Made by a program: the position numbers and the translations under genes. The notes under the pieces were generated by a model. It had not been told where the DNA came from and made no database searches. It saw only the letters and a program-made list of their open reading frames with translations. Shown piece by piece: positions 4,947-48,183 of a stretch of 55,054 bases of DNA. The first letter of the stretch is position 1. Every line of letters starts with the position of its first letter. The DNA comes from a virus, in IMG/VR virus record IMGVR_UViG_3300044846_002992, positions 1-55,054 of that record, one strand, 5' to 3'.

Positions 4947-6842
4947 ATGACCAATCCCGAAGAATTCTACTCCTTCTCAACCGTCCTCGATACTGTAGGA
5001 TCACGCATTGACGAGCTAGTCAGCTACCTACTGCCTGCTGCCCGCAAGCAAGCTGGCTGCTACCGCGTAGGAGGCATTGACGGCTCTCCTGGCTCCTCCC
5101 TCTCCATCTCCACCAAGCCCTCCAATGCTGGCTGCTACTACGACCACAACGGAGGCGACAGCGGCAACGCTATTGGCCTCTGGGCGCACGTCAAAGGCCT
5201 AGACTACCAAGCAGCAGGCCGCGACCTCGCTCGCTTCCTAGGAGTGGCTCCAGAGCCCCGCATGCACATGCCCAAGCGGCGCAACCCTCCCAAGATTGTC
5301 CGAGAGGAGCGAGGACTTACCATGACCTGTGGCGGGCGAGAAGTGCATGTAGGCCCCCTCAACGCCAAAAGCATCAACTACGCCCTGTCACGCGGCATCA
5401 CCGAAGCCACCCTTAGACTCGCAAAATGCACCTCCACCGACACCCACATTGTATTCCCCCACTTCGATGAAGAAGACAAAGCAGTTTTGCTTAAAGCTTG
5501 GTCCTGTGACGGGCGGAAGCATATGTTCTCGAACGATGATCCTGTTCCAACCCTATTCGGCAAAAACATGGTTGACCCACTCAAGTCGGGATCGACCCTA
5601 ATCATCACGGAGGGGCAGTGGGACGCTCTGACATGGCAGCAGCTAGGCTATCCAGCCGTCTCCATCCCTTCAGGAGTCAGTAACGATGAGTGGATTGGTG
5701 AAGACTGGTCGTTCCTCAATTGCTTCTCCCAGATTTACCTCGATTTTGATGACGACCCACCCGGCCAAGAAGCCGAGCTGAAAGCCAAAGTGAGGCTGGG
5801 TTACGACAGGTGCCGCTCGATCCGCTATCGCTTCAAAGACGCCAACGCTGCGCTTGTGGCGGGCGCTGAGGACGTTCTCCGAGAAGCCTTCAAGCATGCC
5901 AAAGAGGCCCCTGTAGAGCGCATTGTCAAAGCCTCTGACATCAAAGACAAGGTGAAGGATAGGCTCAACCGGACCAACATGCAGGCCGGAACCCCGTTTT
6001 TCCTGAGGAGCGTTGAATTTGAATTTCGCCCCTACGAAATCACGCTTTGGTTCGGAATCACGGGTCACGGCAAATCCTCCATTCTCTCCAATCAAATCTG
6101 CTATGCTGCCTCCTTGGGTAAAATGGCGATGGTGGCATCCTTCGAGCAGGCCACGCCAATGACGGTGGCGGCAATGCTTTCGCAGTTTACCTCGGATGCA
6201 CAAATTGGCTCCAGTCCTGACTTTGACGAAGCCTTTGATGCCCTAACCTCTCGAGTGATGTTCTTTGACTCGATGCTTCGCGCCAACCCGGATGAACTCA
6301 TCGCCACGATGACCATTGCCCACAAGCAGTTGGGCATTGATGAATTTGTCATCGACAACATCATGACGCTGGAAGTGGACAGACAGGACAACACTGCCCA
6401 AGCGGCTGTCGCCGACAGGTTTCGGGTTTTTGCTGCTCAGTTCCCAGTTCACATTCATCTGGTTGCCCACCCCCGGAAGCCCCCAGCAAACGAGGCTTCA
6501 AAGCCCCCCTCCATCGCGGACATCATGGGCGCTTCAGAATGGAGCGGCATGGCTCACAACGTCATCTGCGTATGGCGTGACGTAGCCAAAACGCAGCGCC
6601 TCTCAGAGATGCGAGACGAGCAAATGGATGCTGCTGAAATCATGGCGTTCGATGAAAGCTGCCCTGATGGCAAGGCCTTCTGGCGAAAGCAGCGCGACTC
6701 AGGCGAGCTGCCAATGGTGTCTTATCGCTTTTGCAAAAAGACCAAACGCGCGTGGAAAACACCCGATGATCTCATGCCCCTGTGGTTCCCTGAGGATCAT
6801 CAATTTGGCGGCGAAACAATCTCCACAGAGGAGCAAGGCTGA
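4947..6842 (+). CDS. Primase-helicase, T7 gp4 type (TOPRIM + RecA-like)
   Basis: 631 residues. The N-terminal region (~1-100) contains GCYYDHNGGDSGNAIGLWAH, like the zinc/primase-associated N-domain of phage primase-helicases but without a clear CxxC pair. A TOPRIM domain follows at ~215-300 (LIITEGQWDAL with the catalytic Glu, then IYLDFDDDPPGQ). The helicase domain spans ~360-600: Walker A GITGHGKSSI (~370), Walker B-like DEFVIDNIM (~465) and the switch segment HIHLVAHPRKP (~505), as in DnaB/T7 gp4. It should prime and unwind the replication fork. Lack of the zinc-finger cysteines would imply altered template recognition or a degenerate primase, as in some phage homologues. The start has no Shine-Dalgarno sequence. 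Confidence 0.93.
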   Translation: MTNPEEFYSFSTVLDTVGSRIDELVSYLLPAARKQAGCYRVGGIDGSPGSSLSISTKPSNAGCYYDHNGGDSGNAIGLWAHVKGLDYQAAGRDLARFLGVAPEPRMHMPKRRNPPKIVREERGLTMTCGGREVHVGPLNAKSINYALSRGITEATLRLAKCTSTDTHIVFPHFDEEDKAVLLKAWSCDGRKHMFSNDDPVPTLFGKNMVDPLKSGSTLIITEGQWDALTWQQLGYPAVSIPSGVSNDEWIGEDWSFLNCFSQIYLDFDDDPPGQEAELKAKVRLGYDRCRSIRYRFKDANAALVAGAEDVLREAFKHAKEAPVERIVKASDIKDKVKDRLNRTNMQAGTPFFLRSVEFEFRPYEITLWFGITGHGKSSILSNQICYAASLGKMAMVASFEQATPMTVAAMLSQFTSDAQIGSSPDFDEAFDALTSRVMFFDSMLRANPDELIATMTIAHKQLGIDEFVIDNIMTLEVDRQDNTAQAAVADRFRVFAAQFPVHIHLVAHPRKPPANEASKPPSIADIMGASEWSGMAHNVICVWRDVAKTQRLSEMRDEQMDAAEIMAFDESCPDGKAFWRKQRDSGELPMVSYRFCKKTKRAWKTPDDLMPLWFPEDHQFGGETISTEEQG

Positions 6843-7666: not shown

Positions 7667-7963
7667 ATGAAAGACATCGAATCACAAGCTATCGAATATG
7701 CAGAAGCTCTGAACGACATTGCGGATGTTCTCGACATGCCCACTGGTGCGAAATCCGCCGAAATAGTGCAAGCTGCCCGCAACCGATGGTCGAACGGAAT
7801 CCATACGTGCCACGACAAATGCAGCCGCGAAAGGTGCGTTGAGCGCCGCAAAATGAGATCCATGCGGGAGGCGCTGGAATACATCGCCCATAGTGGACTG
7901 TCCGCGCGGCATCTTTCCGACCATGCCCGAGATCACCTTTTTGTCAACAAAACCAACTTATGA
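7667..7963 (+). CDS. Unknown small Cys/His protein
   Basis: 98 residues: N-terminal helices (DIESQAIEYAEALNDIADVL) and then a Cys/His cluster, TCHDKCSRERCVERR, which could form a small metal site. The C-terminus is LFVNKTNL, encoded by site copy 3, so the last codons are shaped by the DNA motif. The stop overlaps the next ATG. Function unknown. Confidence 0.5.
   Translation: MKDIESQAIEYAEALNDIADVLDMPTGAKSAEIVQAARNRWSNGIHTCHDKCSRERCVERRKMRSMREALEYIAHSGLSARHLSDHARDHLFVNKTNL
7939..7952 (+). repeat. 14-bp GTCAAC-core site, copy 3
   Basis: Reads TTTTGTCAACAAAA, exact. It is 7 bp upstream of the ATG at 7960 and co-oriented. Confidence 0.85.
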
Positions 7964-8250
7964 AAACAACCACAGCCCTAATCCTAGAAGACTCAGACTT
8001 CACCAAAGACAAAAATCTGAAGTTTGAAGCTTTTGAAGCAATGTGCCACGCAGAAATCGTAATTCGCGGATCGGCAGTAATCAAAAACAGACCCACTGGA
8101 GAAATCTCCGAGAAGGGCCCAGATATGTCTAAAGGCCCTGCCAAGCGCGTCCGCAGGGCAAGAACCCCAGAAGTGACCATCGAGCCTCTACAAGCAGCGA
8201 CAGGACCTCAAAGCGACACTTCACCAGAACCATCCGATCACGATGGCTAA
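7960..8250 (+). CDS. Unknown small basic protein
   Basis: 96 residues starting in the ATGA overlap with the previous gene and 7 bp after site copy 3. The first half is ordered (ALILEDSDFTKDKNLKFEAFEAMCHAEIVIRGSAVI). The second half is Lys/Arg/Pro-rich and probably disordered (GPAKRVRRARTPEVTIEPL). It overlaps the RNA ligase start by 8 bases, so the two are likely co-translated. No family recognised. Confidence 0.5.
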   Translation: MKTTTALILEDSDFTKDKNLKFEAFEAMCHAEIVIRGSAVIKNRPTGEISEKGPDMSKGPAKRVRRARTPEVTIEPLQAATGPQSDTSPEPSDHDG

Positions 8251-8932
8251 TCCAATCCGAATCACCACCATGCACCCCGAGTTCACATCCTTTCCTAAGC
8301 TGGCCCGCCTAAACCGCGAAATCTGGATCACTGAAAAAATCGACGGCACCAACGCTCAGGTTCGTATCATCAAACCCGAGGTCGCCGTCTCTGAATTTTC
8401 TGGATGGGTTGCCCACGTTGACGATCATCTCATCTGGGCTGGAAGCCGCAACCGCTGGGTGACGCCGGAACAAGACAATCACGGCTGGGCTCGCTGGGTA
8501 AAAGAAAACGCAGAAGAGCTGGTCAAGCTTGGCTACGGCTCCCATTTTGGGGAGTGGTGGGGAAGCGGAATTAATCGCGGCTACGGCCTGACCAAGGGCG
8601 AAAAGCACTTCAGCCTTTTCAACACTCTGCGCTGGAGCCCTCCGGGACAGCCCACAATTCAGTCAGGAGAGCGCTGGGACGACAAGTCCAAGGTGATGAC
8701 GCCGATCTTCACGCAAGAGGCTCCGGCCTGCTGTGGAGTGGTTCCTGTGCTCTATCGCGGGCTGTTTGAAACCGAATGCGTCAACATGGCGCTGAGCGAG
8801 CTCAAAGCGGTAGGCAGCATTGCATCTCCGGGATACATGAACCCAGAAGGAGTTGTTGTCTTTCACACAGCCGCCAACTCGGCGTTCAAAGTGACCATCA
8901 AGGACGACGAGAAACCCAAAGGCGCGGCCTGA
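8243..8932 (+). CDS. RNA ligase, Rnl2-like nucleotidyltransferase
   Basis: 229 residues with the covalent nucleotidyltransferase signature. Motif I is EKIDGTN (residues 31-37, Lys32 as AMP-accepting nucleophile). A motif III-like region is near HFSLFNTLRW (~115), motif IV is PEGVVVF (201-207) and motif V is AFKVTIK (214-220). It is a compact, ligase-core-only version, as in phage Rnl2/DRAB-type RNA ligases, and would seal 3'-OH/5'-phosphate RNA nicks using ATP. It lies 0.6-2 kb upstream of a tRNA, an interrupted tRNA and a large structured RNA, with a HAD-type end-processing candidate at 17251. A role in tRNA repair or rejoining is therefore an attractive inference. Confidence 0.85.
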   Translation: MANPIRITTMHPEFTSFPKLARLNREIWITEKIDGTNAQVRIIKPEVAVSEFSGWVAHVDDHLIWAGSRNRWVTPEQDNHGWARWVKENAEELVKLGYGSHFGEWWGSGINRGYGLTKGEKHFSLFNTLRWSPPGQPTIQSGERWDDKSKVMTPIFTQEAPACCGVVPVLYRGLFETECVNMALSELKAVGSIASPGYMNPEGVVVFHTAANSAFKVTIKDDEKPKGAA

Positions 8933-8935
8933 GCA

Positions 8936-9481
8936 TCACCCTTCCCTCGTCCAGCAGCCCGACCAAAACGGAAACGCGTCCGCGCTCCCAAGCTGATCGC
9001 GAGGAACCCACACTTTGAGCGGCAAATAGCACCCGCAAGCTCCGCAAGCCTCGGGCGCGTCCACCTTCTCGGGTGGATGAATGGTGAGCTTCAAAGCGTC
9101 CTTGCACGTCGGGCACCCCGCCACCGAAGAGCGAAGCGGGCACCCTCTGCAAATGGAAGCTCTGCGATGCGCCTCCTGCGGAGCCACCAAAGAGCTGTCC
9201 ACTACGCGCTTCGCCATGAAGCGGAGGAAATTAAGAGCCGATCCCACCGACACCAAGCGTCGCTTCGCGCCGCCGGGAGCACGCTTGACGTGCTTGGGGT
9301 AGGCAGCAGCCAGCGCAGTCCAAACGAGCGATTCCCAGTTGATTGGGAGCCTTAGGTCGTTCTGGTCGTAATGACGCCTAAATTGATTGAAAAGCTGACC
9401 TGTGGTTTTGCCCGATAGGCGAACGCCCTCGACGGTGACGCTGAATTTACTTGGCACAGGCCCGTTTGTGGTCCATTTCAT
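8936..9481 (-). CDS. Cys-rich zinc-ribbon protein, transcribed leftward
   Basis: 181 residues on the opposite strand to its early-gene neighbours. Unusually here, an AGGAGG Shine-Dalgarno lies 16 bases before the ATG at 9481, and site copy 4 is a few bases further upstream. The C-terminal third has the series CRGCPLRSSVAGCPTCKDA ... CGACGCYLPLKVWVP ... SGCW. These are three Cys pairs plus CGC-x-L-x2-K, a layout seen in phage and plasmid zinc-ribbon proteins of unknown role. The N-terminal part is basic (QFRRHYDQNDLRL, GGAKRRLVSVGSALNFLRFMAKR). It ends 4 bases from the RNA ligase stop, so the two genes converge. Possibly a nucleic-acid-binding regulator. Confidence 0.65.
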   Translation of the reverse strand: MKWTTNGPVPSKFSVTVEGVRLSGKTTGQLFNQFRRHYDQNDLRLPINWESLVWTALAAAYPKHVKRAPGGAKRRLVSVGSALNFLRFMAKRVVDSSLVAPQEAHRRASICRGCPLRSSVAGCPTCKDALKLTIHPPEKVDAPEACGACGCYLPLKVWVPRDQLGSADAFPFWSGCWTREG

Positions 9482-9502
9482 GCGCGTCAGCCTACCTCCT
9501 GG

Positions 9503-9516
9503 TTTTGTTGACGCAA
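9503..9516 (-). repeat. 14-bp GTCAAC-core site, copy 4
   Basis: On the minus strand it reads TTGCGTCAACAAAA, exact. It is 21 bp upstream of the leftward ATG at 9481 and 4 bp before the tRNA at 9521, so it could serve a divergent control region. Confidence 0.85.
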
Positions 9517-9520
9517 GAAC

Positions 9521-9596
9521 AACCGGGCATGACCCAAGGCTGGCGAGCTGGTTTCCAACTCCGGCTGGGTGAGTTCGATTCTCACTCCGGTTGCCA
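9521..9596 (+). tRNA. tRNA-Trp(CCA)-like, 76 nt with encoded CCA
   Basis: Acceptor AACCGGG (9521-9527) pairs with TCCGGTT (9586-9592), followed by discriminator G and CCA. The T-arm is GTGAG-TTCGATT-CTCAC (9569-9585). An anticodon arm CTGGT / TTCCAAC / TCCGG (9548-9564) gives anticodon CCA with U33, and G73 agrees with tRNA-Trp. One T-T mismatch closes the anticodon stem and the D-arm (9530-9547) does not pair well. Another folding register would give TCC (Gly). It may be divergent, decaying or in need of modification. Confidence 0.6.
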
Positions 9597-9604
9597 TTTT
9601 CAAA

Positions 9605-9632
9605 AGCAGGATAGCTCAGAAGGTAGAGCGTT
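9605..9632 (+). tRNA. 5' half of an interrupted tRNA-Met-like gene
   Basis: AGCAGGA (9605-9611), TA, then a perfect D-arm GCTC-AGAAGGTA-GAGC (9614-9629) and G26. The acceptor strand is the exact complement of TCCTGCT at 10083+100 (10083 is inside the ORF; the matching strand is 10183-10189), which sits beyond the HNH ORF. The anticodon stem that should follow is replaced by a T-run and the ORF leader. Confidence 0.7.
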
Positions 9633-9671
9633 TTTTCTTGATGCTGACTAGGCTACCCCACATCCTCCCGC

Positions 9672-10148
9672 ATGCCCATCTGTAAAAAGTGCGAATCCAG
9701 ATTTCCCTGCAAAATCACAATCGAAGGCAAAAGGCGAAATCTCGCCAAACGTCGCTATTGCCTCATTTGCTCTCCTTTTGGAGCGCACAATACCATCCAG
9801 CTACATATAACGCAGCCGCCGAAGCTTGAAAGGAAATGTGATTCCTGCCAACGGGACTACATCTACGAAAAAAGCAAAGGCCATAAAGCAACCCGATGTA
9901 ATTCATGCACCCAGTCCGAAAGAAGAAAGGCGCGAAAACGACGCCTCGTTGATCTTAAAGGAGGCCAATGCGAAAAATGCGGTTACTCAAAATCATTAGC
10001 TGGTCTTCATTTTCATCATAAAGATCCAACCATCAAAGAATTTGAAATCAAACACGTCTTTGGAATGAAGATGGATACCCTGCTTCGGGAGATTGAAAAA
10101 TGTTCTCTCCTGTGCGCAAATTGCCACGCGGAAGAACACGAACGATAG
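9672..10148 (+). CDS. HNH homing endonuclease inserted in a tRNA gene
   Basis: 158 residues. Zinc-finger pairs run through the protein: CKKC near the N-terminus, YCLICSPFGAHNT, CDSCQRDY, CNSC and CEKCGY. It ends in an HNH core, LHFHHKDP ... CSLLCANCHAEEHE. The 'CxxC...R.YC..C.P.G.HNT' N-terminus is typical of free-standing HNH homing endonucleases in phages. The ORF sits exactly between the two halves of a tRNA, with only ~39 bases before and no spacer after its stop. That is too little for a complete group I or II intron unless the ribozyme overlaps the coding sequence. It would cut intron-less tRNA alleles to spread. Confidence 0.88.
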   Translation: MPICKKCESRFPCKITIEGKRRNLAKRRYCLICSPFGAHNTIQLHITQPPKLERKCDSCQRDYIYEKSKGHKATRCNSCTQSERRKARKRRLVDLKGGQCEKCGYSKSLAGLHFHHKDPTIKEFEIKHVFGMKMDTLLREIEKCSLLCANCHAEEHER

Positions 10149-10193
10149 CCCATACCCCAATTGTCGTAGGTTCGAGTCCTACTCCTGCTACCA
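10149..10193 (+). tRNA. 3' half of the interrupted tRNA-Met-like gene
   Basis: Directly after the HNH stop: CCCATAC (loop-like, CAT at 10151-10153), CCCAA (3' anticodon strand, 10156-10160), TTGTC, T-arm GTAGG-TTCGAGT-CCTAC (10166-10182), TCCTGCT (10183-10189), A and CCA. The acceptor pairs 7/7 with 9605-9611. The 5' partner TTGGG of the anticodon stem is missing from the 5' half. Confidence 0.7.
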
Positions 10194-11225
10194 CTTTTGC
10201 GAGTAAGCGACGTTGGCCCGTGTCGCGCAATGTCCTCGCGAACGATGCGAATTCCAAATTCGTTTCGTGTGAACGGGCCGCCACCCTCCAGTCCTTCAAG
10301 GCGTAGCCCACCCCCTCGGTGAGGGGTCTCGCGGTGCAAACCCGCGTGGAGGATTGGAGTGTGGTGGAGGCGTCATAGCTTAGTGCAGAGCGTCGGGCAA
10401 ATAACCCGCATGAACGGAACGTAGCAAACTCCTGGCGCGAACGAAAACCACACAGACACCCCGGAAAGACGGGGCGAGACACATCCAGCGCCCTAAGAAA
10501 CAGGCTCGACCTGCCCAAAGGCTGGATTGCGGGCGGAGCGTCATGCCGTTACCGGACACCGTAACCGGACTATTTCCGGGAAATACTAGTCCAATCCCGA
10601 AAACTGGACCACAGCAGTATCTGTGGAGGCTAGTCCAGAATAGCCATACCTGCTGGGCTTGGCGGAGTCACCCGCCTATATCGTCCGGGATGAATCATCC
10701 GAGACCGCAGTGGCCAAACCTGCGAAACTAAAGGGCATCAATTTCCAATCCAATGAGAGAGCGGCGCGGAAGCCAAAGCACAGCAGGAGACGTATTCCAC
10801 CTGTCGCTTGAGACGCGCCTACAGTCGGTGATGCAACGCGCTTTAATCCGATGTCAGCCTGTGCAAGCGCGACTAGCAGGAGCCGTAGTAGCGCACGGCC
10901 TCTCTCACCCTTTCCAATGACACCTCAGCCTGCCGAGACCGTCCAGCCGGGGCGCGGAGCGCGCGCGTTAGGCGCATAATGCTCCCTCGCAAATGTCCGG
11001 AATCAGGGGCGTAGCGGGTTGGGGTGCCACCTTTCACACAATGACGCGTCATCGCAAAGGAGCGGGGCCCAGATTGACGACCAGCTCCATGAAGTTTGGC
11101 GTTAATTCCTTGAAACGGACAAACGCTGGGATGCACGAAACCCCAAGTGGGGCAGCGGTGGGGCCAAACAGCCCCCTTGAATAATTATGGGAAATAGCCG
11201 CCGGAGCCAGTAGCCGCTGGCGCGC
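10194..11225 (+). ncRNA. Candidate ~1 kb ornate structured noncoding RNA
   Basis: No credible ORF; its sense fits the tRNAs just upstream. Local and long-range helices are dense. They include 10215-10221/10273-10279 (GGCCCGT/ACGGGCC) closing two hairpins (10223-10241 and 10242-10268), 10281-10290/10355-10364 and 10312-10326. A tRNA-like fold occupies 10370-10438. Further stems are 10459-10474, 10483-10489/10521-10527, 10567-10592, 10604-10638 and 10661-10676. Long-range pairs are 10735-10740/10829-10834 and 10755-10761/10900-10906 (GAGAGAG/CTCTCTC). The 3' part has 10956-10985 and 11153-11158/11214-11219 enclosing 11160-11175. It ends with GCCAG/CTGGC (11206-11221) and a short T-run. Size, phage context and position after tRNAs recall GOLLD and ROOL RNAs, but I cannot match the consensus. 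Confidence 0.75.
10370..10438 (+). ncRNA. tRNA-like domain inside the large RNA
   Basis: GCGTCA (10370-10375) pairs with TGGCGC (10433-10438) as an acceptor-like stem, followed by TA. A D-arm-like GCTT-AGTGCA-GAGC (10378-10391) comes next, then an anticodon-like arm CGGG-CAAATAA-CCCG (10394-10408). GGA/TCC (10416-10418/10430-10432) stands where the T-stem would be. There is no U33, no canonical T-loop and no CCA, so it is not a functional tRNA but looks derived from one or mimics one. Confidence 0.5.
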
Positions 11226-11232
11226 GTCACCT

Positions 11233-11246
11233 TTTTGTCAACAAAA
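11233..11246 (+). repeat. 14-bp GTCAAC-core site, copy 5
   Basis: Reads TTTTGTCAACAAAA, exact. It follows the end of the structured RNA and is 14 bp upstream of the ATG at 11261. Confidence 0.85.
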
Positions 11247-11260
11247 CCAAATCAACCCCT

Positions 11261-11716
11261 ATGAAAACAGACACCTCAATTGCAGCGCCTCAAAGAGCCT
11301 CTGCCCAAATCACGCCAAAACCAACAAAGGCCCAAATCATCAATGCCATTATTCAAGAGACCATCGCTGCCCGCATGGTTGAGAATGCCAAAAGGGAGCA
11401 AAAGCGATTGGTTATTCAGGCAAAGATGGATAAGGAAATCCAAAAATTAAAAAAGCGCTCCATCAAAATCGGAGACCTGGTGATCAACAACAGCTCTGGC
11501 CCAGACATTGCCGTTCCTTATCAAAAAATTAACGGAACGCCAGAAATGGCAAGGCTCGCCTCGGAAATCAAAAAACTTGCACCCCTTACAACCTGTCCAT
11601 TCAACGTAAAAGAGGAGGTTGTTCAGCGAATGGAAAATGAAATGATTGCCTTCATTCTGAGTCAGCCAGGAATGAAAAACGCCATCCAATCGACCATTCA
11701 AAAGCTTGGCTTGTAA
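11261..11716 (+). CDS. Unknown helical protein
   Basis: 151 residues, first gene after the RNA block, with site copy 5 in its leader and no Shine-Dalgarno sequence. It is mostly helical and Lys-rich (KPTKAQIINAIIQETIAARMVENAKREQKRLVIQ, KMDKEIQKLKKRSIKIGDLV), with a second half of mixed helices ending IQSTIQKLGL. There are no Cys/His clusters or nucleotide-binding motifs. Its stop overlaps the next ATG by one base. It could be a small nucleic-acid-binding or scaffold protein; the family is not recognised. Confidence 0.6.
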   Translation: MKTDTSIAAPQRASAQITPKPTKAQIINAIIQETIAARMVENAKREQKRLVIQAKMDKEIQKLKKRSIKIGDLVINNSSGPDIAVPYQKINGTPEMARLASEIKKLAPLTTCPFNVKEEVVQRMENEMIAFILSQPGMKNAIQSTIQKLGL

Positions 11717-13092: not shown

Positions 13093-13346
13093 AGACCCCA
13101 TCATACCAACAGCTCACCAATTGGTGCGACTTGCATGGCATCACTCTTACGCGAGAAGCGGGTGGCGTCAGGGCTGTTGCCTATGACCGCAACCAGCAAA
13201 TCATTACGTCCATTTTCTCATCGGCAAACTCGGCAGTGAAGGGGAAAGTCAATGAAGCCGCGTGCGCCATTCACGCATGCGATGCCATTGCTGAATCGCT
13301 GCTCATTGTAAAGCCCTCTATAGCCTTCCAGCTCAACTCAAAATGA
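13089..13346 (+). CDS. Unknown small protein
   Basis: 85 residues, ATGA-linked on both sides. Alpha/beta pattern: LTNWCDLHGITLTREAGGVRAVAYDRNQQIITSIFSSANSAVKG, then two helices rich in Ala/Cys. No known family. Position directly before the exonuclease suggests a recombination accessory protein (a guess from context). Confidence 0.5.
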   Translation: MKTPSYQQLTNWCDLHGITLTREAGGVRAVAYDRNQQIITSIFSSANSAVKGKVNEAACAIHACDAIAESLLIVKPSIAFQLNSK

Positions 13347-14242
13347 AACAAGCCTCCCTCACTCCGCGACAGTATCACCAACTGCAATTTGATCTAAACA
13401 AGCTGCCCGACCTAACGAAGACAGGTCCAATCTCAGCCTCCATCCTGAGCGCTGCGCGAGACCCTCTCCGAATGGTGCTGTGCCAAAAAGCGCAAACCAA
13501 CGAAATGCAGTGGGGCAATCTCGTTGATACCCTCTGGCTGACCCCCGCTCTGTTTGCCTCTGAATACGCCCTACTGCCCGAAGACGCGCCTCGCGATGTT
13601 CGTGGAGACAAACGCATCATGAACGCCAAGAAGCCGTCTCAGGACTCCCTGGACGCCATTGCGTGGTGGAATGGCTGGGATGCAAAAACGAGAGGTCAAA
13701 CCCCCATCAAGCAGGCAGAGCTGGATGAGGCCAAAATGGCCGTCAGCATGCTCAACCAAAATGACTTGGCCCGCTCCATCCTGGAGGCATCAAGCAAGCA
13801 GGTGGCCCTTGTGGGAGATTCGCCCTATGTCCCTGGAGCCAAAGCAAAATGCCTCATCGACCTCCTGCCAACCAGCGGGCCTTTTGTTGACGCAATTCCA
13901 GACCTCAAGACCACCGGGCAAATGGGAGAAAAGCAACTGGCCTCCACCGCGTTCACCTTCGACTACATCTTCAAGCTGGCCTACTACGGAGTGCTGGCAG
14001 AAATCGCCGGATTCGGCCCCAGGACGCGAGGTGTGCTGGTTTGGCAAAACTCCTCTTTCCCCTTTGAGGTGAAGGTGAGAGAGATCCCCAAGTCGCAAAT
14101 GGACATAGCTCGGCAGCTTCTGATGAGTCGCCATCGCAAACTCCAATCAATCAACCCCGCTGACATCAGATCCCACTTCGACACCACCCTCCGAGAAATG
14201 CCATTGCCCGACTGGGCGATGAATGCTTACGCTTCGGAATGA
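13343..14242 (+). CDS. PD-(D/E)XK exonuclease, RecE-like
   Basis: 299 residues. Substrate-entry and active-site segments fit the exodeoxyribonuclease VIII-like PDDEXK (DUF3799) family. MQWGNLVDTLWLTP is at ~50-65, and WWNGW and IKQAELDEAKMAVSML at ~110-135. CLIDLLPTSGPFVDAIPDLKTTG at ~170-192 supplies the Asp and the D-x-K catalytic residues. Such enzymes resect 5' ends for single-strand annealing recombination. No annealing protein is recognised nearby; one of the small neighbours may act as partner. Start ATG overlaps the previous stop. It carries site copy 6. Confidence 0.85.
   Translation: MKQASLTPRQYHQLQFDLNKLPDLTKTGPISASILSAARDPLRMVLCQKAQTNEMQWGNLVDTLWLTPALFASEYALLPEDAPRDVRGDKRIMNAKKPSQDSLDAIAWWNGWDAKTRGQTPIKQAELDEAKMAVSMLNQNDLARSILEASSKQVALVGDSPYVPGAKAKCLIDLLPTSGPFVDAIPDLKTTGQMGEKQLASTAFTFDYIFKLAYYGVLAEIAGFGPRTRGVLVWQNSSFPFEVKVREIPKSQMDIARQLLMSRHRKLQSINPADIRSHFDTTLREMPLPDWAMNAYASE
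13882..13895 (-). repeat. 14-bp GTCAAC-core site, copy 6
   Basis: Minus-strand reading TTGCGTCAACAAAA, exact; inside the RecE-like gene and opposed to its transcription, the only such case in the rightward block apart from copy 4. Confidence 0.8.
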
Positions 14243-18267: not shown

Positions 18268-21200
18268 TCAGCGCCTCCACTGATTGTCCCAAATTTGGGC
18301 GCCTGTTTTGTTGACAAAACGCTTGTTCAAATCTTGCTGGAGTTCCCGCGGAGTGAATGGCATGCCTCCCAAAAGGAGAAGTCCCATATCCCGGACGGAA
18401 ACTTCATCAGGGGCGTTGCTGATCACCGTGAGAGGCTCCACGATATTCGCCACGCCGTCCATGACCAGAGAGTAGCGAGCCAGATCGTTCATCAGGGATG
18501 AAGTGGCGGTGTAGATGGCATTGTCCCATCCGCTACCATCACTGATGTCGGTGTTTTCCAAGGTGAAGCCAGCACGCTCAAAGTGAGCCGGGCTTCCTGG
18601 AATCAGAGGATCAACAACCTTGTTCATGGCGTATTGCCCAAATGCTCCACCGACCGCAGTGGAGGCCACAAGGCCAATGTTGCCATAGGGAACCTGCTTT
18701 AGAACCTCCATGCCCAATTCGACAGTGATCTGGTGCAGGTCCTGATTACTCTTAGACTCGTCAAACCCTCCAACTGAATCGGACCAGCCGATGGGACGCG
18801 TGCCACCCAGGGTTAGCGCAACCCACTTCATCATAGTGCGCTCGTCTGGGTTTTTCGGATCAATCCCGAAGAAGCTTGCATACAAATCCTCGCGCTCTTC
18901 CTCGTCCATTCCTGTGAGCATGCCGATTCCCTGTGCGATAAGGTATGACGCCACTTTGTATTTCACAAGGCGGAACAGGACGTTCTGAATGACATTCGAC
19001 GCAAGGAGGCGCTTGCCAACCGCGCGAGCCTGGGCATCTCCATTCATGATCATGCTGTAGGCTGCCATGCTGTTGCCAGCAACATGGACCTGGTGGTTCG
19101 AAAGCTGCATCGCGCCAAGCCTCAAGATCTCAGCCCCGATGGTCTCCCGTTGCTGGAACGCGCCAGCCTTCTTTGACTGGTCGGCGGTAGCGGCCATGTC
19201 TGCCACGTCCCGTTCGGAGCGGCGCAGGACAGAGGATGTGACCTCTTCCATGCTGAAGGAGGGCTCTAGGAACTCCTTGACTGTCAGTTTCGCGGGCATG
19301 CCAGCCGCCTCACGGGCAGCATTGATGTGCCTCACGACAGAATCTATGAAGATTGTATTGGCGATGGTCTTTTCCGCCCCGCCGATCACTGTCTGGACCA
19401 TGCGACTACCTGCCTCCATGGCAAGACTGCCAGCTCTCCCCACAGTGTCCGTCACGGGGGATAGGATGTTGGTGGCTCTTCCGGCAAGACGGCCCCGTGA
19501 ACGCATGCCTTTCGACGGGCGCACGTAGTTGATGTCGTCAAGGTAGTCGCGTTCGCCATTGGCCTTTCGAAGCTGCACGTTGATTCCAATCTCGGCGACG
19601 CGACGGTCAATGCGAGAAGCAAGGTTGTCAGGTAGCGCGGTTCCGGTCAAGGCGCGCAGAGGCGCTCCAAGGCCGTTCATGGCCCTGTGTAGTAAGTAGT
19701 CAGCGTAAAGAGCCATGTATCCCACGTTCTTGCCAACGCCTCCATGCACCATTGCGTAGGTGATGACTGCTGGCAGGGTTTGGGTATAGAGCTGGGAAAC
19801 AGAATTGAGAGCCTTCACGATGCCGAGCTGGTGAAGCTTCTGGACAAATCCCATCGCGCGATGCTTCGGTCCCTTGGAGGCCATCTCCTTGCGCAAGATT
19901 TGTTGCCCCATGTGGGCAATTGCGTTCGCTGCGTCAGTGAGCTGGTCTTCCTTGCCAGGAAGAAGAGTGGAGGCGTTCTCGTCGATGTAGCCATAGTCAT
20001 CAGTGCCCTTGGCCAAAACTCCATCGTGAATGTGGGTGGTGCCAACGGTGGCACGGAAAGCCTCGTAGGCCGGAGTGACGTTCTGCCTAAAGAGCATATC
20101 CTCCGCGATGCGCAGAGGCACCGTCAGGCCGTTGGTGTCGAGCATGTGCATCTCTCCGTGCTTCGGGTTGCGGACAGGCGACTGCATGAATGCAGCGCGT
20201 CCAAGCCCGAGCCGCTCATGGAGTGGAGCAATCTGCTCTGAGGTTGAGTGGGTCCTGCCGAAGGTTTGCCACATCATGGCCATTGGAGTTACTCCCTCCA
20301 TAAATTTGGTGTCCACACCGGAAAGTCTGGCTTGCTCGACATACGACTCACGCAGGTAGTTCAGGGTTTCGTTGACAAAAGTGCCCCATTGCAGAGAGCG
20401 TGGAGGCAGCGTGGCCTGCAGGCTCAGAAGCTCAGCATCTACATCAAAGCTGGACCCGGTGGTCATCCTGGCAAGGGGATCACGAAACGTCTTTTCAAGC
20501 TCTTGAACAATAACCCTCTGCTCAAGCAGGCGATAGGTCTCCTCGGTCATGTAGGCCTTCAGCTCGGAGGACTTCTGGCGAAGCTTCTCGATGCTCATGG
20601 AGAGAAGATCAGTCCTGGTGGTAGCTCCGGTAGTAGGAGGAAGCCCGGCAAGGATTGCCTCCTCAATACCATCCAGCGCCTGCAGGAACATCTTCTGCAT
20701 GGTCTTGACACGATCCTGAACCTTCGAGCCTGAAGGGCCAGATTGGATGTATCCACGCATCGCAAAGAACATATATCCAAGAGACGACTCCCACAGAACG
20801 TCAGGCCTGCTGGACGCCCTGGTAAAGGCGCGCTTGAAGCGACCACCAAAAATTTTGTTCATCTTGCGGTTGAACAACTTGGATACCTCATTGAGTTGAG
20901 CGCGATGATTATTGATGCCAGTCTTACCAGCAGGACCGTAGGACAGCACGCCAATCATGTCCTCGGCAGACTCAATGGCTGCAAACTTCTTGGCGAACAA
21001 CTTCCTCATGGCTCCGTCATGGTTCATCAGCATGGAAAACACGCCACCCTCAGCAAACGGCTTTTCTTTTTCCGTCCAGATGCGGGATGGAAGATAGCCA
21101 GACTCGATCAGAGCGGCAGACTGATTACTGCCAATCTGGGCCTCAGCAAGGTTGGCAACGACGTCAATCTTGCGAACAGTGCTGATTGTTGGGCTGCCCA

Positions 21201-24200
21201 TCTCACGCATCAGGGCTTCAGCCTGCACCTGCACCGAGCCGGAAAGCATATTGCCCTTCAGGGCCGCGATGATAGAAGCAATGCGAAGCTCCGTCGAAGA
21301 GCGGACAGACGCTTTTGGATCGAAGGCCCCAAGCTCTGCAGCAGTGTTTCCAATACGAGATGTGGCGCGATGGAAGCCAAGAATCGGATTGAGCGAGACC
21401 ATGTAGGCAGAAGCGTCGCGCTTCGACTGTGGATCAATGTGCGCCGCAGTGCGGAGGTTGGCGGAGCCATCAGCATTGACCTTGAGTGGAGCCCGTGGAG
21501 CGGCTGGCTTGGAGTCCACCGGACCAATCTGGTTATCCACAACGTGGTAAGGCTCACCAGTGAGTATGGTCATGGTATCAGCCACAATCTCGGCCTGTTC
21601 GTCAGCCGTGCGGGCCGCGACGTGGTTTGCAGCAAATTTGTCCAGAAGGCTGGAGTTGGCGATGTTCCTAGTATAGTTCTCCTCCCAAACCTGGGCTCTC
21701 CAGAGATGGTCACGGCGAAGGGCCTCAACGTCGTCTGCAGCTCCGAAGTAACGAAGCTGGCTCGGAAGATCCATGCCGCGTGGGGCGAACACCTTCTGTT
21801 TGCGCCTGATATATTTCTGCTCTTCGCGGAGGGCGTCCGAAAGAAGCCTCTCGGCCTTGCCGCGTTTATGGCGCTCGCGCTCCTGAAGGATGTTACGGGA
21901 CAGACTGAGTGCAATCTGGCGCTTGGTATTGGTGCTTAAGCCTTGAACGGCGGCGTGATTGGCTGACTCCATCTCGCTCAGAGTGCGGAACACGTCCATT
22001 ACCAAGGCGTTGGGAGTGTCTGGAGTGTTGTCCACGCGTGCCTCCCGGTCAGAGAGGCGCTGGGCCAGAATGCTCGTAAGCGCTTGCGCCTGCTGCTCAA
22101 ACGGGAACACGGACGCATGGATGGATGCCGCGATTGCCTGACGCTTCTCATCAGGAGACATCGTCTTGCTGATCAGGGCACTCACAATTTGGGGAAGCGC
22201 TTCATCAGGGATTTGGATTTCCCTATTCGGCTCCACACCGGAGAACTCCAGCGAGCTCAGGCCATTGGATGGGTCGTATGTCGCCAAGCCTTCCGCGGCC
22301 TCTAGGGCGGCAGCGGCTTCTGCGGTGCGCCTCACGCCAGTTGTGGTGGACATGCGGGTGGCGTGCGCCTGGATGCTTGCAATGGAAGCCAGGGCGTCAT
22401 CCAGAGAGTCCAACGCGTTGTTGCCCATGCGGAGCTCTGTAGACATCAGGCGCATTCCCATGCGCTCACCAACGAAGGTTGTGTAGGCATCGACAACTTG
22501 GTTGAACTTGCTTCTGGCCCTGCCCATCGCCATCACCGCGCGGAACAACGACTCATTTGCAGACTCCTTGGTTGCAAGGTTTTCAGCAGCCTCGCCTGCG
22601 GCTCGGGCGGCTTGCGCCTCCTGATGAAGGCGTTTGAAATTGGCTTCAGCCTTGGACAGCAGCTTGGAAACGCGGCGAGACTCGGCGGCGATTGCGGCCT
22701 GTTTCGACTCGATAATGACAGGGGTTCGGGTCAGGCCATTGCCGGGACTGGTTGCTGCAATCCTGTCACGCAGGGCATCCACTCCAAAAGCCTTGGCAAG
22801 CTGGGATAAGCTGGTCTCAATTTGCACGTCGGTCATGACGTGAGGAGCCTTCCCTCCGTTCATGACGGCGACGTAAGCATCAAACGCGGTCTCGTCTTTG
22901 ACGCTTGGGTTGCGCTGGTAGGTAATAGAGTTCGCCGCCCATTCATCAGCAGCAACACGCTGCCTGCTCTGACGGGCCTTGTAACGGCCTCTGGCTTCGT
23001 TCAGGCGGGTCTCAAGGACGTTCAGACGCTCCATGTCGGCCTTGCGACGCGCGGACTCAGCACGGGGATTCTGGATGGCAGGAGACGCAATCCTGGACAG
23101 CACTCGGGCATTAACCCTCGGGGCTTGCACGAGACGCAGGGAACGAAGCAGATCGCCACTCCGAGACTCAAATTGCTCGATCACAGAGTTGGTCATTGCA
23201 TCCACCAGCTCGCTGGCACCATCGAAGTGGGACTTAAGGAGAGGGCCCGCATCAGCCCAGTGGCCTTCTGCGATGGTCAGGTATTTCCCGCGGCCTAACA
23301 CCTCGCGAAACTGCTCCATATCACGAGCCGCCAACAAGTCCTTCCTGACCTCGTCCAGCTCGCTGATGGCATCAGAGACCACCTTAGCCTCAGCCATTGC
23401 GTTCGCGGCGGAAGTCTCCATCTCCGCGATTTCGCGCATGGCCTTGTTCGCCTCGCGCCTGATCATCGTCTGCTGCCAGGTGAGGCTGTCCACCTCCTGC
23501 TCGACTGGCTGAATGTCAAGATGACTGAAGCCATGGTTGGCCACTTGATGGAACAGCTCCTCTTGCGCCTTCCTAAAGACCTCCCCAGTCGAAAGGGCGC
23601 TACCAGTGGCGAGACCAGGCACAGTCAGGACATACACTCCGTTTTCATCAATGGTCCACTTTGTTGGAAAAGTGGCAGGCTTTTGAATGGGCTGGCGAAA
23701 AAGCTTTGCCCCTTTCACGGCGGCATCGTGAGCTGCTGTTTTCTTGAGCCTGTATCCGACGATGCGCGAGTAGGGAAGTCCAGTGATCATACCGGCCTTG
23801 TCCCACTGATCGCGACCACGCTCATCTTGCCCAATTCGCATCTCAATTCTCACGGGCTCCACCTCATCTCCCGTGTATTCCCTGCCAGTTTTGTCAACAA
23901 AAATAGGCCTGCCTTGGGCGTCGTGCTTCTGAAGCTTGCGCATCACAACACGGCCCTGTTCCTGACGCTCCCGCTTGATCTGCGGGAGGTTGGCGGCAAT
24001 CTCCAAACGGGCCTTGCCCCAGGCGTTCGTGACTTCGACGGCACCGTCGGCCTGCGCAATTGGGAATGCTCCCTTCTTGAGCCTGCCTTCATACCAGTTT
24101 TGCCCGGAGCCTCCCATCTGCGAAAACGACCACTGCTTGTAATGAGCGGCGACGTCCTCCTGCCATTCCGTGGTAAACGGAACGACGCTCAGGAAGTAGC

Positions 24201-27200
24201 TGCGCAGGCGCTCTGCGGCCTCTCCAGACATGGCGAGGAGCGACTCCACCGAAGGCGAGGCGATGCCAGCGCCGTTCCAGCCACCGCGGTCACTTTGGTC
24301 TCCCAAAATCCAATCGCGTAAGTCACCATCGGGAAGAGCCGCCAGCATCTGCCGGGCCTCGAAAGAAGTAAGCTTGGTTTCGCGGTTGGTACCAACAAGA
24401 GCCCCAAGGCCACGCGGAGCCTTGGCGTGCTTCTCATCCACAAATGGATTGCTCTGGTCCGCAGAATCCCACGATGGATTCACATTATCCAGGACAGAAT
24501 GCAGCAGACTGTTGGCCCACTCAGCGCGGATGGACATCACCGGAGTGCCGGATGGCGTTCCCACAATGGACATGCGGCGCTGATAACCTTCCTCAGTCTC
24601 ACCGTCAGTGACAACCTCCTCAGCAAACTCATTGGCAAGCGCGTCAAACTCCTCGTCTCCAAACTGAACATTCTCCATGCCCTTGCCGCGGTCAGCAAGG
24701 CTTCTTGAAATACGTTCCTCGGTCTCGATAAACTTGTCGTAACCAGGGAAGCGTGCGTCATCAATAAGCTCGCCACGGGCCGCTACAGCCTCAGGACGGA
24801 TGGGGCCGATGCCAAGCGGCATCACATTCATGGAAAGTGACAAGGCAAGCTTGGCGTCGTTATTGGTCATCGCCAGCGCAATGACGCCAGCGGCGCTCTC
24901 GGGAGAAAGACGTCCAGCCATCGAAATTGAGACAGAAGGATCAAACCACGGGGCAGCAGGATGGTTTCCGATATTGCGGGCGGCGGCAATAGCCGAGCGC
25001 TTTGCCTTCTCGGTCTCGCGGGCTGCAACAAGGTAGATTTTAGCGTCCTCCTCCTCAGTGATGGTCTTTCCGACCAGTTCGTAATCAGATTCCAGACGTT
25101 CACGGATGGCCTGCGCCAAGGAGTCGGGGTTGTTGCGAGGGCCGCGAATGGCTTCCGTGATTCGCCTGGCTTCTTTCACCACATCAACAGCCCCATTTTC
25201 ATGCAGCCAAACCAGCATGGCCTCAAGAGCGGCCACGGAGTCTTCAGGCGTCACTTGGACAGCGGAGCCGTATGGGAACGCCAAGACGGGAGCCTGCTTG
25301 TCAGGAATGAACAGGACGGTTGGAATACGGGCACCAGTTTCTTGAGTAACAAGCCCCTGCATGCCCATCTTTTCAAGCTGGGTATTGTCAATTTTGTCTG
25401 TTGCGCCACGAACCTCTTCGGACTTGTGGCGGTCCTGGCGACGATCATCACGCAGCAACAACTCGCGCTGGGCTGGAGCGCCAGTGCGTCTGGCAACACC
25501 ATCGCCAGCAACAACGCTGCCTCGATCCTGAGAACTAGTCCAGGGCACGTCACCGTCGATCACCGCGATGTTCCTGATCATCATTGCAACCGCGCTCACA
25601 ACGTGCCCGCTGGCCTGGTCGTCGCCACCATGGAAAGCGGCGGGATTGATTGGCATTGTAGCACTTGCGTAGAACTGGACATGCCCGCCACGCTCGCGCA
25701 GAGCCTCAATGGTGGCAGCCGCTTCAGGGTGGGATGCCTGAAGATTGGCAAGCGCACCGTCGAAAGTGTTTCGTTCACCCCGAGAATCAAACAGGTTCTT
25801 TCCAAAACGTGTGATCAGCCCGCGTTGTTTATGCTCTTCGTGACCCTGGGCAAGTCTGAACATGATTTCATTATCGAGCGCGTCAGTGTCATATCCTTCA
25901 CCAAGCGCGAAGCGTGGGTCATTGACGAAGGAGTAGACGTGCTCGCGGTTGCCTCCAAGCAGGGCGCTGAGGGCCCTTGCGCGCCAGCGGCCAAGGGACA
26001 CGGCCTGCATGGCCTCACGGTTCTGCTCGGCCCGAACACGCTCTGCGGTCAAGTCGCCCTCTTCCATCCGACTGGCTGTATCACGGTCTGCGGAGGTTGT
26101 AGCGTAGTAGTTGCCGACAGCCTCATCGTTCTCTGGGTCAACGCCATGACGCAAAAGCGCGGCCCTTTCCAGGGAGATGCTCTCGAACTGCTTCATCAGC
26201 TCAACTGGCTCGTCTGGACGAATCAGGGAAATCATTACTGAATTCTGCAATGGGCCAAACTCCGCATCCTTGGGTCGCGCGGCTTCCTGCGTCGATTGAG
26301 CCCGGACATCAATCTCAAACTCGATTTTGCTCATCTCGTCAGGATCTACAGGGAACTCGGCCCTGCGGCTGGCGGAGCGGCGCATGCTGTCGCGCCTGTC
26401 GTTGGCCTGTCTGATGGCTGACTTGTAGATGGTATTGACCAAGGAGACTCCATTGTAGAGTTCCCAGGCACGGAAAGTCAGATTGGTCGGGCGCTCTGCA
26501 AGCGCCTTGGCTTGAGCAGCAAAGACTGAAGCCTGCTCAATACCAGCCAGCAGACGGTCGTATGCGCCACGGGATTTCTTGAGGCGGTCGCGAAGAGGCA
26601 CGCCATCAATCACAAGGTCTTTTGTTGACGCAAGAAACTGAACCAGCCTGGGCGCGAGAATGGAGTTGGCAAGTCCAGCGGGCGTGAGGCCGTCACGATG
26701 ACTCAAGAGCGGATGCGTCTGATCTGCAGAGACGTCGTGCATCGTTGATACAAACTGGGCGGCAGCGCTCACCAAGTCATCAAGGAACCCGGAGTCGAGC
26801 ATCTTCGCCAGGTTCTCTTCGGGGCCAACTTCGAAATTGATTTCGCCGCTTGGGTCTGCAAGAAGCGCAAGATCGGGAGGGGTGATGATCAGCTCTGGAG
26901 CGAACGGGGAGCGATTGTAGGTATCGACCGCAGTGATAGGTAGGGAGAATCCAGCCGAGTTTACGGCCTGCGTATTGACGCCCGGATGACCGCGCCAAGC
27001 GGCCTCCGTCAGCGACTCATAAAGCTTGCGAGTGATAGCGATGGCATTACCCTTCATCACGCTATTGCGCTCTGACGAGTCCATCTTCTCTCCGATGTCA
27101 TTGATGGACGCGCGGGAGAAGGGATCGGGATTGACACCAAGGATCTCGAACGAGCCATCCACGCCAGACATGACGTCATTTGCAACAGCCTCAACCACGA

Positions 27201-30200
27201 CACTCATCATGCTCTCGGGCTGTGACTTCATCTTGCCGCCTTGCATTCCGACAGCAATGTCATAGGACGAGCCTTCACCAGAGCTGATGGTCATGGTGCC
27301 ATACGGGGAATCAATCTGGAAGCTTGTCAAAAATCCAGTTGTTGGAATGAGCGGGTTGGCAGAGTCGGCCATATCGCCACCAGAGAATGCAATCGGGCCG
27401 ATATGCACTGGCATCAGGTCAATCTTTGCTGAGTGCCTGAAGTCGAGTCCACTCCATGAGGTTGACGGGGCCCACAGGGAGCGCGGAGTGTCGCCGCCCA
27501 TGGTGATGTATGCCAGCTCTGCTCTGAAATTACGCAGGCGAGCGATGGCGTCATGAGATCCGGCAGCAGACGCAAGGGCGCTGATGGTCCTGCTGGCTGC
27601 AGTGGGGTCTTTCAGAGAGTCGTTGATCAAGGATCCGGCACGAGACGGGTCGCGCATGAAGAGATCAAGAAGTCCGTCCAGGCCATTGATTGAACTAACA
27701 GCATTAACTCTGGCCATTGCCAGATCAAAACGCTTGGCCTCGATCTGACGCACCAAACTCTGTAGTGCTTTGATATGAGGAGTGTCGGAGGTGGACTTGA
27801 GGATTGGCTGCAGGAGCGCGTTGACGTCGGCCAGTCGGTCATCAACCAGCTTTTCAGCAGCGAGGTAGGCCTCACGACTCAGCGAAAACTCGGCCATGTC
27901 CTTCTTGAACTGGTCAAGAGCCTCTGTCACCGCAGCACTGGCAACAGCTTGTTCCGCCCGGATGGCATCCAGCGCTGCTTCGAGCTCATCTGGAGATAGG
28001 TCTGGATCGACGCTGGTGTCGGTGAGCTTGTCAACCAGTTCACGCGATACGGAGAGAGCTCTGTCTACCGCTCCAGCACTTGGGGCGACTGGCTCGGCCA
28101 TCATGGAGAAGGCCTTCTTTGCGTCCTGGTGGGCCGTCAGGGCTTTCGAAAGAGCGATGTCGCCAGTGGATGCCCGCTTCAGCAGGGAGGCCTCCAGCTC
28201 GTCAATAGAGGCCACAATCTCACCTACGGCAGAGTCACGACTGAAGATGGTGCCGTTGATGGCAGCAATCAAATCGGCAGCAGGCATTCCAGCCTCGCTC
28301 TCAATAGCCAACTCGATTTGTTGACGCAAGTTGGCCGTGTTTGAGACAACCGCGTCAACCAGCTTGGTCACGGGACGGTCATTCTCGTCGCGTGCGTCAC
28401 GCCGGGAGCGCTGCAGGCCGAAAAGCGGCTCGCCAAGATTACGAAGGCGGAGGAGCGAGGACAGGTCGCGCTCTGCTTCCACGAGGCGCTCAATAAACTC
28501 AGGGCGTCCGTTGTCGTTCAAAACTTCAAGGGCCTCGGAGAGCTCCGCATCATTGATCCCTGGAGCTGGCTCAAGACGACCGCCCACAAGGGACACCGGC
28601 ATCAGATCGGGATCGCCGGAGGCGGCGCGCATCCGACCAATCACACCGCGGACAGATGCCTGAGCCGCAGACACACGAGCGCCAGCGCGAGCAAACTTAT
28701 GAATGCCGCGCAAAGTCACAACCTGTTGCCTGGAGGCCTCGTTGCCAACTCCCTGCACATCAGGAGAAAGAAATCCCTGCTCGCTCACCACTTTGTTGAG
28801 GCGTTCAAGCATGATGCCAATTTCGTTCGGGAGGCCATTGGCCACGCGATGCGCCTCAAGCATGTTCTTCACGGCGCGGACGAGACGGTTAGCCATCTCG
28901 CGCAAGCGCTGCAGAAAGCCCCGTGAGCCCTCAGTGGCGTTGTCGGCGTAGTAGCCAAAGTCAGCCAGCACAGAGCCGCTGGTCTTGCCTGAAACAAGCC
29001 TCTGACGGAACTGTGCCATCCACTCGTGAGAGGATGCAACAAGCTCTTCGAAAGAGATACCCCTCACTGCCTCATCGACAGAATTGAACGGAGTCGCACC
29101 GAATCCAGCGCGACGCCAGTTGATGGCAGTAAGCCACGACTTTGCCAGACGTGGATTAGACAAAGACTGGTTGGTCAGATTTTCGGCCAAATCCATCATC
29201 TCGTCGTCCGTGAACTCGGAGACGCTGGCAATGTGGACGAGCTCTTCGTATACAATCTGGGCCAAATACTCGGCGAAGTCCTGAACCGCATAGTATTGCC
29301 CAACCTTGTTGCTTGGGGCGATGCGGTTGTATTTGCTGGCCAGCGAACGTGCCACGTTCTCTGGATTCACCTCGATCATCAGCGTGCCATCAGCAGATGG
29401 ATTTACCTGCATGGTAACGTCTGGATCATCGGTCCAGGTGACATGCTTAGCCGCAAACTCGTCAGAAACCAGCGACCCAACCTGCGCCAAAACCATCTCT
29501 TTTGTCAACGCAATGACCTCCGGGGAAACGGTGCCTTTACCTGCGGTGATTGATTCCACGATTGTGGCGGCAATCTTCTCGGCCTTCTCGGTGATGTGCC
29601 TGCGAGGAGTGTAGCGACTGATTGCCGAGAACACCTTGGAACCAAACGTGTTGGCATCAAACTGACCGGAAGTTCCGACCTGTGAAGTCACCTCGGCCAG
29701 GTCGTAGCGGATACGCCCGTCTTTACCAACCTCACGATTCACGACGATGTGCGCGCTCTCAACCTTGTTGTCCTTGTTGACGCCGAGCACCAAACCTCCC
29801 ACCTCAGCAGTGACATCCAGATCTCCTTCAGCGCCGGAATACATGACAGAGCGTCCCGAGTCCTTGCCGTGCTTCTTGCTGGCAGTCAGGAGCTTGGACT
29901 TGTCAGAGGACGAGAGCACGACAGAGGCGTCTGTGGCGACGGTTGCCACTGGGGCAGTGGTGGCGGTCTTGAGACCTCCTTTTGCAGCGGCGCGCTCACG
30001 ACGTAGACGAGCAAACCTCTCCTCGATGGTCTCATTGGCTGGAGGAGCCTCTGCTGGAGGGGTTGCCTCCACGGCGGGCTCGGGCTCTGGAGCCGCCTCC
30101 ACCTCTGGGGCAGAAGCGGGCTCCGACTCTTGTGTTACAGGTTCCGGCATTTGCCCTTCGGCTTGCCCTTGCCCTTCGATTTCGTCTTCATCGGGTTGTG

Positions 30201-48101: not shown

Positions 48102-48115
48102 TTTTGTTGACGAAA
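48102..48115 (-). repeat. 14-bp GTCAAC-core site, copy 20
   Basis: Minus reading TTTCGTCAACAAAA, exact; 7 bp upstream of the ATG at 48094, just after the terminator. Confidence 0.85.
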
Positions 48116-48124
48116 GAGAAAAGG

Positions 48125-48164
48125 AAAAGGCCCCCTTGCTCAGGGGTTCTGGCAAAGGGGCCTT
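48125..48164 (-). terminator. Strong terminator after major capsid gene
   Basis: AAAGGCCCC(C)TTGC (from 48125) pairs with GCAAAGGGGCCTTT (to 48164): about 14 bp with one mismatch, followed in the leftward direction by a T/C-rich tract. It lies 20 bases after the capsid stop. It separates capsid from tail genes and would help give capsid mRNA its own level. Confidence 0.8.
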
Positions 48165-48183
48165 TCGTTGGGGGTTAGTCAGC

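Follow-up and report, generated by a model that had tools for sequence, protein, structure and literature searches.

The longest ORF-less interval in the genome of an uncultured phage (IMG/VR virus record IMGVR_UViG_3300044846_002992, all 55,054 bases of which form the window analysed here) lies directly behind the 3' end of a tRNA on the same strand, and the leading explanation for this interval, 10194-11228, is that it encodes a large non-coding RNA forming the 3' part of a tRNA transcript. We give this reading a probability of roughly 0.4; it leads because large non-coding RNAs have precedents in phages and because no gene is present. The contig is otherwise compact: the ORF set covers ~94% of it, and replication genes on the plus strand lie in its left 18 kb. 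With the tRNA 3' half included, 10149-11260 is the longest noncoding stretch of the contig in this ORF set, and the gap proper, 10194-11260, runs from the encoded CCA end of the tRNA (10191-10193) to the next ATG (11261). A single 4800-aa ORF on the minus strand (18268-32670) takes up about a quarter of the contig. The features of the left part that matter here are as follows.

4947-6842, plus strand: primase/helicase gene
8243-8932, plus strand: RNA ligase gene
9521-9596, plus strand: tRNA-Trp(CCA)-like gene with encoded CCA, from the sequence and relaxed ARAGORN
9605-9630, plus strand: 5' half of a split tRNA (acceptor strand AGCAGGA, TA, D-arm GCTC AGAAGGTA GAGC, G)
9672-10148, plus strand: gene for an HNH endonuclease of 158 aa that interrupts the tRNA (phrog_2255, E 2.4e-39)
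10166-10193, plus strand: 3' half of the split tRNA (GTAGG TTCGAGT CCTAC, TCCTGCT, A, CCA)
10194-11228, presumed plus strand: ORF-less interval, candidate orphan large ncRNA, from codon usage, protein-family searches and fold statistics
11229-11250, plus strand: one occurrence of the TTTTTGTCAACAAAACC site that is dispersed in this phage (24-nt identity with 7933-7956)
13343-14242, plus strand: exonuclease VIII-like gene

The initial annotation saw no convincing ORF in this interval, and our analysis agrees. In 10200-11100, 180-nt windows had codon-usage scores between -0.41 and +0.02; these values fall where shuffled DNA does (mean -0.23, 95th percentile -0.06) and for the most part under those of the coding windows of this phage (mean +0.18, 5th percentile -0.11). 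Translations of the interval in all six frames, read through stops, matched nothing in Pfam at E <= 1 and yielded one PHROGs match only, at the chance level of E 0.79. One may postulate that unrecognised or frameshifted protein genes were missed, for example on the minus strand at 10048-10518 or 10873-11136, where ORFs of 156 and 87 aa are present; given these six-frame results this is highly unlikely, and the 156-aa ORF extends through the tRNA 3' half into the HNH gene.

Upstream, two tRNA genes had been proposed. One of them could be recognised by hand, a Trp(CCA)-like tRNA at 9521-9596 with acceptor AACCGGG/TCCGGTT, T-arm GTGAG TTCGATT CTCAC and a weak D-arm, while the second turned out to be divided by the HNH gene into the halves listed above. 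ARAGORN at default settings found no tRNA; its relaxed mode called tRNA-Trp(cca) at 9521-9596 with a score under the default threshold, and the tRNA-Sec covariance model reached 24.6 bits there (E 0.051), under gathering. This tRNA is degenerate. In the split tRNA, 10166-10193 provides a canonical T-arm followed by the 3' acceptor strand and CCA, and the 7-nt acceptor strand of the 5' half pairs fully with 10183-10189 across the HNH gene. When the flanks were joined, ARAGORN called tRNAs at 742 of the 1672 junctions tried, with an inconsistent anticodon; because no junction gives one clear anticodon arm, the sequence at 9605-10193 probably represents an interrupted rather than a spliced tRNA. 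A group I intron was rejected as an account of the insertion, given the shortage of noncoding sequence and the lack of an Rfam match; more generally, the Rfam scan returned no intron family for a group I or group II core, and the noncoding part of the HNH insertion amounts to only tens of bases, too few for such a core. Close to each end of the insert (about 9654 and 10153) there is a TACCCCA motif, and with the RNA ligase gene near the split tRNA, repair or joining of tRNA pieces would be conceivable.

Relatives of the HNH protein sit among tRNA genes in S-WAM2, Felix O1, phiK7A1 and a Pseudomonas aeruginosa phage, and homing into tRNA arrays is therefore ordinary for phrog_2255. The gene to the left of our interval resembles these in belonging to phrog_2255 and lying within tRNA sequence; in Felix O1, S-WAM2 and phiK7A1, however, the HNH gene lies against an intact tRNA or overlaps it slightly, whereas here it parts two halves of one tRNA. 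A reading that ranks close behind the large non-coding RNA, and is nearly as likely, is that the interval is decaying tRNA-array DNA, in which the movement of homing endonucleases broke up one tRNA, leaving pieces of earlier tRNA genes and spacers behind; a four-way junction with a T-arm-like hairpin near the left end of the interval would then be a relic tRNA, and the remainder functionless. The split neighbouring tRNA, the company that phrog_2255 genes keep in other phages and the degenerate tRNA-Trp are all consistent with such decay. A full kilobase of dead DNA would nevertheless be unusual for a compact phage genome, and the G+C content of 10194-11228 (0.589) is above that of both neighbours, the HNH gene (0.447) and the downstream sequence (0.52); that of the contig is 0.551.

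The initial annotation had further described dense RNA-like structure, a description that holds for the individual inverted pairs and is not supported for their density. All four arm pairs that it quoted (10215-10221/10273-10279, 10483-10489/10521-10527, 10755-10761/10900-10906 and 11153-11158/11214-11219) are exact reverse complements. Perfect inverted 6-, 7- and 8-mers numbered 156, 43 and 7, against means of 150, 39 (± 8) and 10.6 in dinucleotide-preserving shuffles, such that the 7-mers lie at chance level and the 8-mers below expectation. Folding of the whole interval gave z -1.5 on the plus strand, where 6 of 104 shuffles were as stable or more so, and z -0.3 on the minus strand (18 of 52); we tentatively assign the interval to the plus strand because the tRNAs lie on it and because the fold is slightly better there. 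By halves, the 5' half scored -1.7 and the 3' half +0.5, and 150-nt windows had a mean z of -0.38 inside the interval versus -0.22 elsewhere. Coding windows of the contig spanned z -2.3 to +1.0, and control RNAs scored -4.6 (EF24C ROOL), -1.6 (Lb338-1 ROOL) and -3.1 (ICP1 lncRNA). That pairing and whole-length folding do not rise above chance, and that the EF24C ROOL and ICP1 RNAs fold clearly better, counts against a non-coding RNA; chance-level folding of most of the interval, including its 3' half, is what decayed DNA would show. Because a genuine ROOL, that of Lb338-1, scores no better, the whole-length test separates real RNAs poorly: the weak score lends the structural claim no support, and it does not exclude a genuine ornate RNA either. 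Should the interval prove to be decayed array DNA, it would serve as a warning that counts of inverted repeats in G+C-rich sequence do not indicate ornate RNA. Elsewhere in the contig, a second noncoding gap of 294 bases (2033-2326) contains several hairpins (fold z -1.6) and is unrelated in sequence to 10194-11225, and among all local folds of the contig the one at 48107-48223 on the minus strand is the most extreme (Lfold z -5.6); it falls in a noncoding gap that has a strong hairpin of ~18 bp, possibly a terminator or regulatory element.

Local structure in the interval is concentrated at its 5' end, where the only two individually strong folds, 10215-10279 and 10278-10369, are found.

10215-10279, plus strand: three-way junction closed by GGCCCGT/ACGGGCC (z -3.1, 9 of 1000 shuffles as stable)
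10281-10368, plus strand: four-way junction, from folding, with a closing helix of ~20 bp and arms of 3, 6 and 5 bp
10330-10346, plus strand: T-arm-like hairpin CGCGG TGCAAAC CCGCG, from sequence and fold, with a stem of 5 bp and a 7-nt loop
10560-10735, plus strand: run of local hairpins with modest support (z -2.3 at 10600-10650, -2.2 at 10560-10650 and -1.6 at 10540-10735)

Both 5' folds are better on the plus strand than on the minus strand. The segment 10278-10369 has a z of -5.45, with none of 1000 shuffles as stable, and by Lfold the four-way junction scores z -3.85, about rank 59 of 1406 local folds contig-wide. These predicted folds at 10215-10368 should be regarded as suggestive only, because their boundaries were fitted and because ~58 folds in the contig are more extreme by Lfold z. 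In the predicted fold the T-arm-like hairpin is stacked directly on the closing helix of the four-way junction, and its 7-nt loop fits the T-loop pattern, U-G-C-A-A. Relaxed ARAGORN reads the junction as a D-arm-reduced tRNA-Pro(cgg), as would be expected of a relic in a decaying array. We rejected 10281-10368 as a tRNA, given that CCA is absent, the D-arm has 3 bp and the acceptor helix continues for ~13 bp; neither default ARAGORN nor the Rfam tRNA model matched this segment. A closing helix that runs so far past the acceptor stem, with no CCA, is also unlike a simple relic. We likewise rejected a second tRNA-like element around 10369-10440 (10365-10445, z +0.55).

Searches for known families and homologues gave no match to the classes to which the interval had been provisionally referred. 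Across the entire window, Rfam 15 gave no family at gathering, a scan that included OLE and HEARO, and at E ≤ 5 the region 9400-11300 produced only weak tRNA-Sec, YrlA and snoRNA matches, all in the tRNA block 9494-9629; the suggested membership in GOLLD, ROOL, OLE or HEARO thus found no match at this threshold. The ROOL model (RF03087) matched nothing in the window, though it recovered its positive controls in EF24C (264.8 bits) and Lb338-1 (213.5 bits); the GOLLD model (RF02032), which covers the conserved 3' domain, also gave no match, the model controls consisting of ROOL genomes only. Comparison by blastn with 50,697 phage and 72,556 plasmid records returned nothing meaningful, and read-through translations of the interval used as DNA probes of IMG/VR and GTDB genomes, a search that detects near-identical copies only, found no relative. 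A covariance model built from the single sequence of the four-way junction recovered its own antisense and no other copy among the loci compared. When relatives of the contig were sought through the primase, the exonuclease and the gene at 8936-9481, one locus (L002, primase 65% identical) was the sole syntenic one and the others (L003-L005) were distant; a scan of GTDB genomes with the 8936-9481 gene family gave nothing. L002 lacks the block and carries in its place a gene whose sequence is AAA-ATPase-like; this is compatible with decay and, like the failure to find homologues that could show covariation, counts against a large non-coding RNA. ARAGORN found no tRNA in L002, and its 350-nt noncoding gap was rejected as a counterpart of the interval (z -0.7, no similarity).

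At its right end, the interval is likely bounded by the TTTTTGTCAACAAAACC copy at 11229-11250, just upstream of the ATG at 11261. This semi-palindromic motif recurs across the contig, with 19 sites within 2 mismatches of TTGTCAACAAAAC where shuffles have 1.3 +- 1.1, among them 1447+, 7941+, 9502-, 11235+, 15388+, 18305-, 20366-, 23891+, 31608+, 37384-, 42364- and 48101-. The sites are mostly oriented with transcription, several directly upstream of start codons, and the motif is reminiscent of dispersed repressor operators (stoperators), or else of a promoter or leader motif used phage-wide. The 13 bp at 9500-9512 and 11237-11249 form a perfect inverted repeat, which was considered as a closing stem or as transposon ends of the tRNA/HNH/ncRNA block and rejected as an instance of the dispersed site, which has 45 matches in the contig at <=3 mismatches versus 14.7 expected. 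Operator-like sites do bracket the block, at 9500-9514 on the minus strand and 11235-11247 on the plus strand, and direct 7-mers in the interval are mildly in excess (56 versus 43 +- 8, with 10 of 200 shuffles reaching 56), as might be seen if the interval acted as DNA rather than RNA, whether as a replication origin, a recombination or packaging site, or a long regulatory region of the gene at 11261. We consider this quite unlikely: such sites occur all over the contig and so do not mark the block, a strong iteron-like array of direct repeats was not found, the cumulative GC-skew minimum lies at 33.6 kb with no turn at the interval, and the interval is G+C-rich rather than A+T-rich.

If 10194-11228 is indeed a large non-coding RNA, transcription would start to the left of the tRNA-Trp-like gene, pass through the split tRNA and the HNH gene, and continue for about 1 kb to the leader of the next gene; counting against this, neither a promoter nor a terminator was matched on the plus strand. 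Host tRNA-processing enzymes might then release the RNA at the tRNA CCA end; its 5' part would consist of the two compact junction domains at 10215-10368, of which one carries the T-arm-like hairpin, and a longer tail with loose structure would follow. Judged by the tRNA-linked lncRNAs of other phages, the molecule may accumulate during infection as RNA or RNP (a scaffold, sponge or cage) and be non-coding. A more specific version, in which it represents a new ~1-kb class of phage RNA with no relation to GOLLD or ROOL, transcribed together with the split tRNA and able through its 5' T-loop-bearing junction to copy or bind tRNA features, is unlikely.

The proposal that the interval belongs to a known class of large phage RNA or to a new one was borne out in position, which fits reported phage lncRNAs, and not in family, for which no match was obtained. 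ROOL and GOLLD are documented large phage RNAs, the latter being phage-borne, near tRNAs, > 800 nt long and sometimes with a tRNA inside (PMC12286853). Our interval is like ROOL (RF03087) as a phage-borne, tRNA-linked, ORF-less candidate for a large RNA, and like GOLLD (RF02032) as phage-borne, near tRNAs and > 800 nt long, with no match to either model. In ICP1, a ~1-kb ORF-less gap between gp139 and gp140 gives rise to an RNA of ~800 nt (PMC7567579), which is likewise outside GOLLD and ROOL; in that case, however, the phage is without tRNAs, the transcript has been observed, and the fold (z -3.1) is clearly better than that of our interval. In Kayvirus, the 570-bp lncRNA1 region lies directly after tRNA-Met and is highly transcribed (PMC7698491). 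The lncRNA1 and lncRNA2 of phage K and vB_SauM-515A1 (PMC7698491, PMC9241854) are similarly ORF-less and beside a same-strand tRNA gene, and Staphylococcus phage K, like our interval, has no Rfam ROOL or GOLLD match. The Kayvirus RNAs are shorter (525-570 bp) and their transcription is shown by RNA-seq; no sequence similarity was found between the present interval and phage K. The interval shares the positional features of tRNA-linked phage non-coding RNAs, taken as a class by analogy, as it is ORF-less, at least 500 nt long and beside same-strand tRNA genes. If transcribed, it would be another sequence-unrelated large RNA behind phage tRNAs, as with ROOL, GOLLD and the Kayvirus lncRNAs, and would speak for repeated evolution or recruitment of large RNAs by phages at such sites, with a shared function that would become testable.
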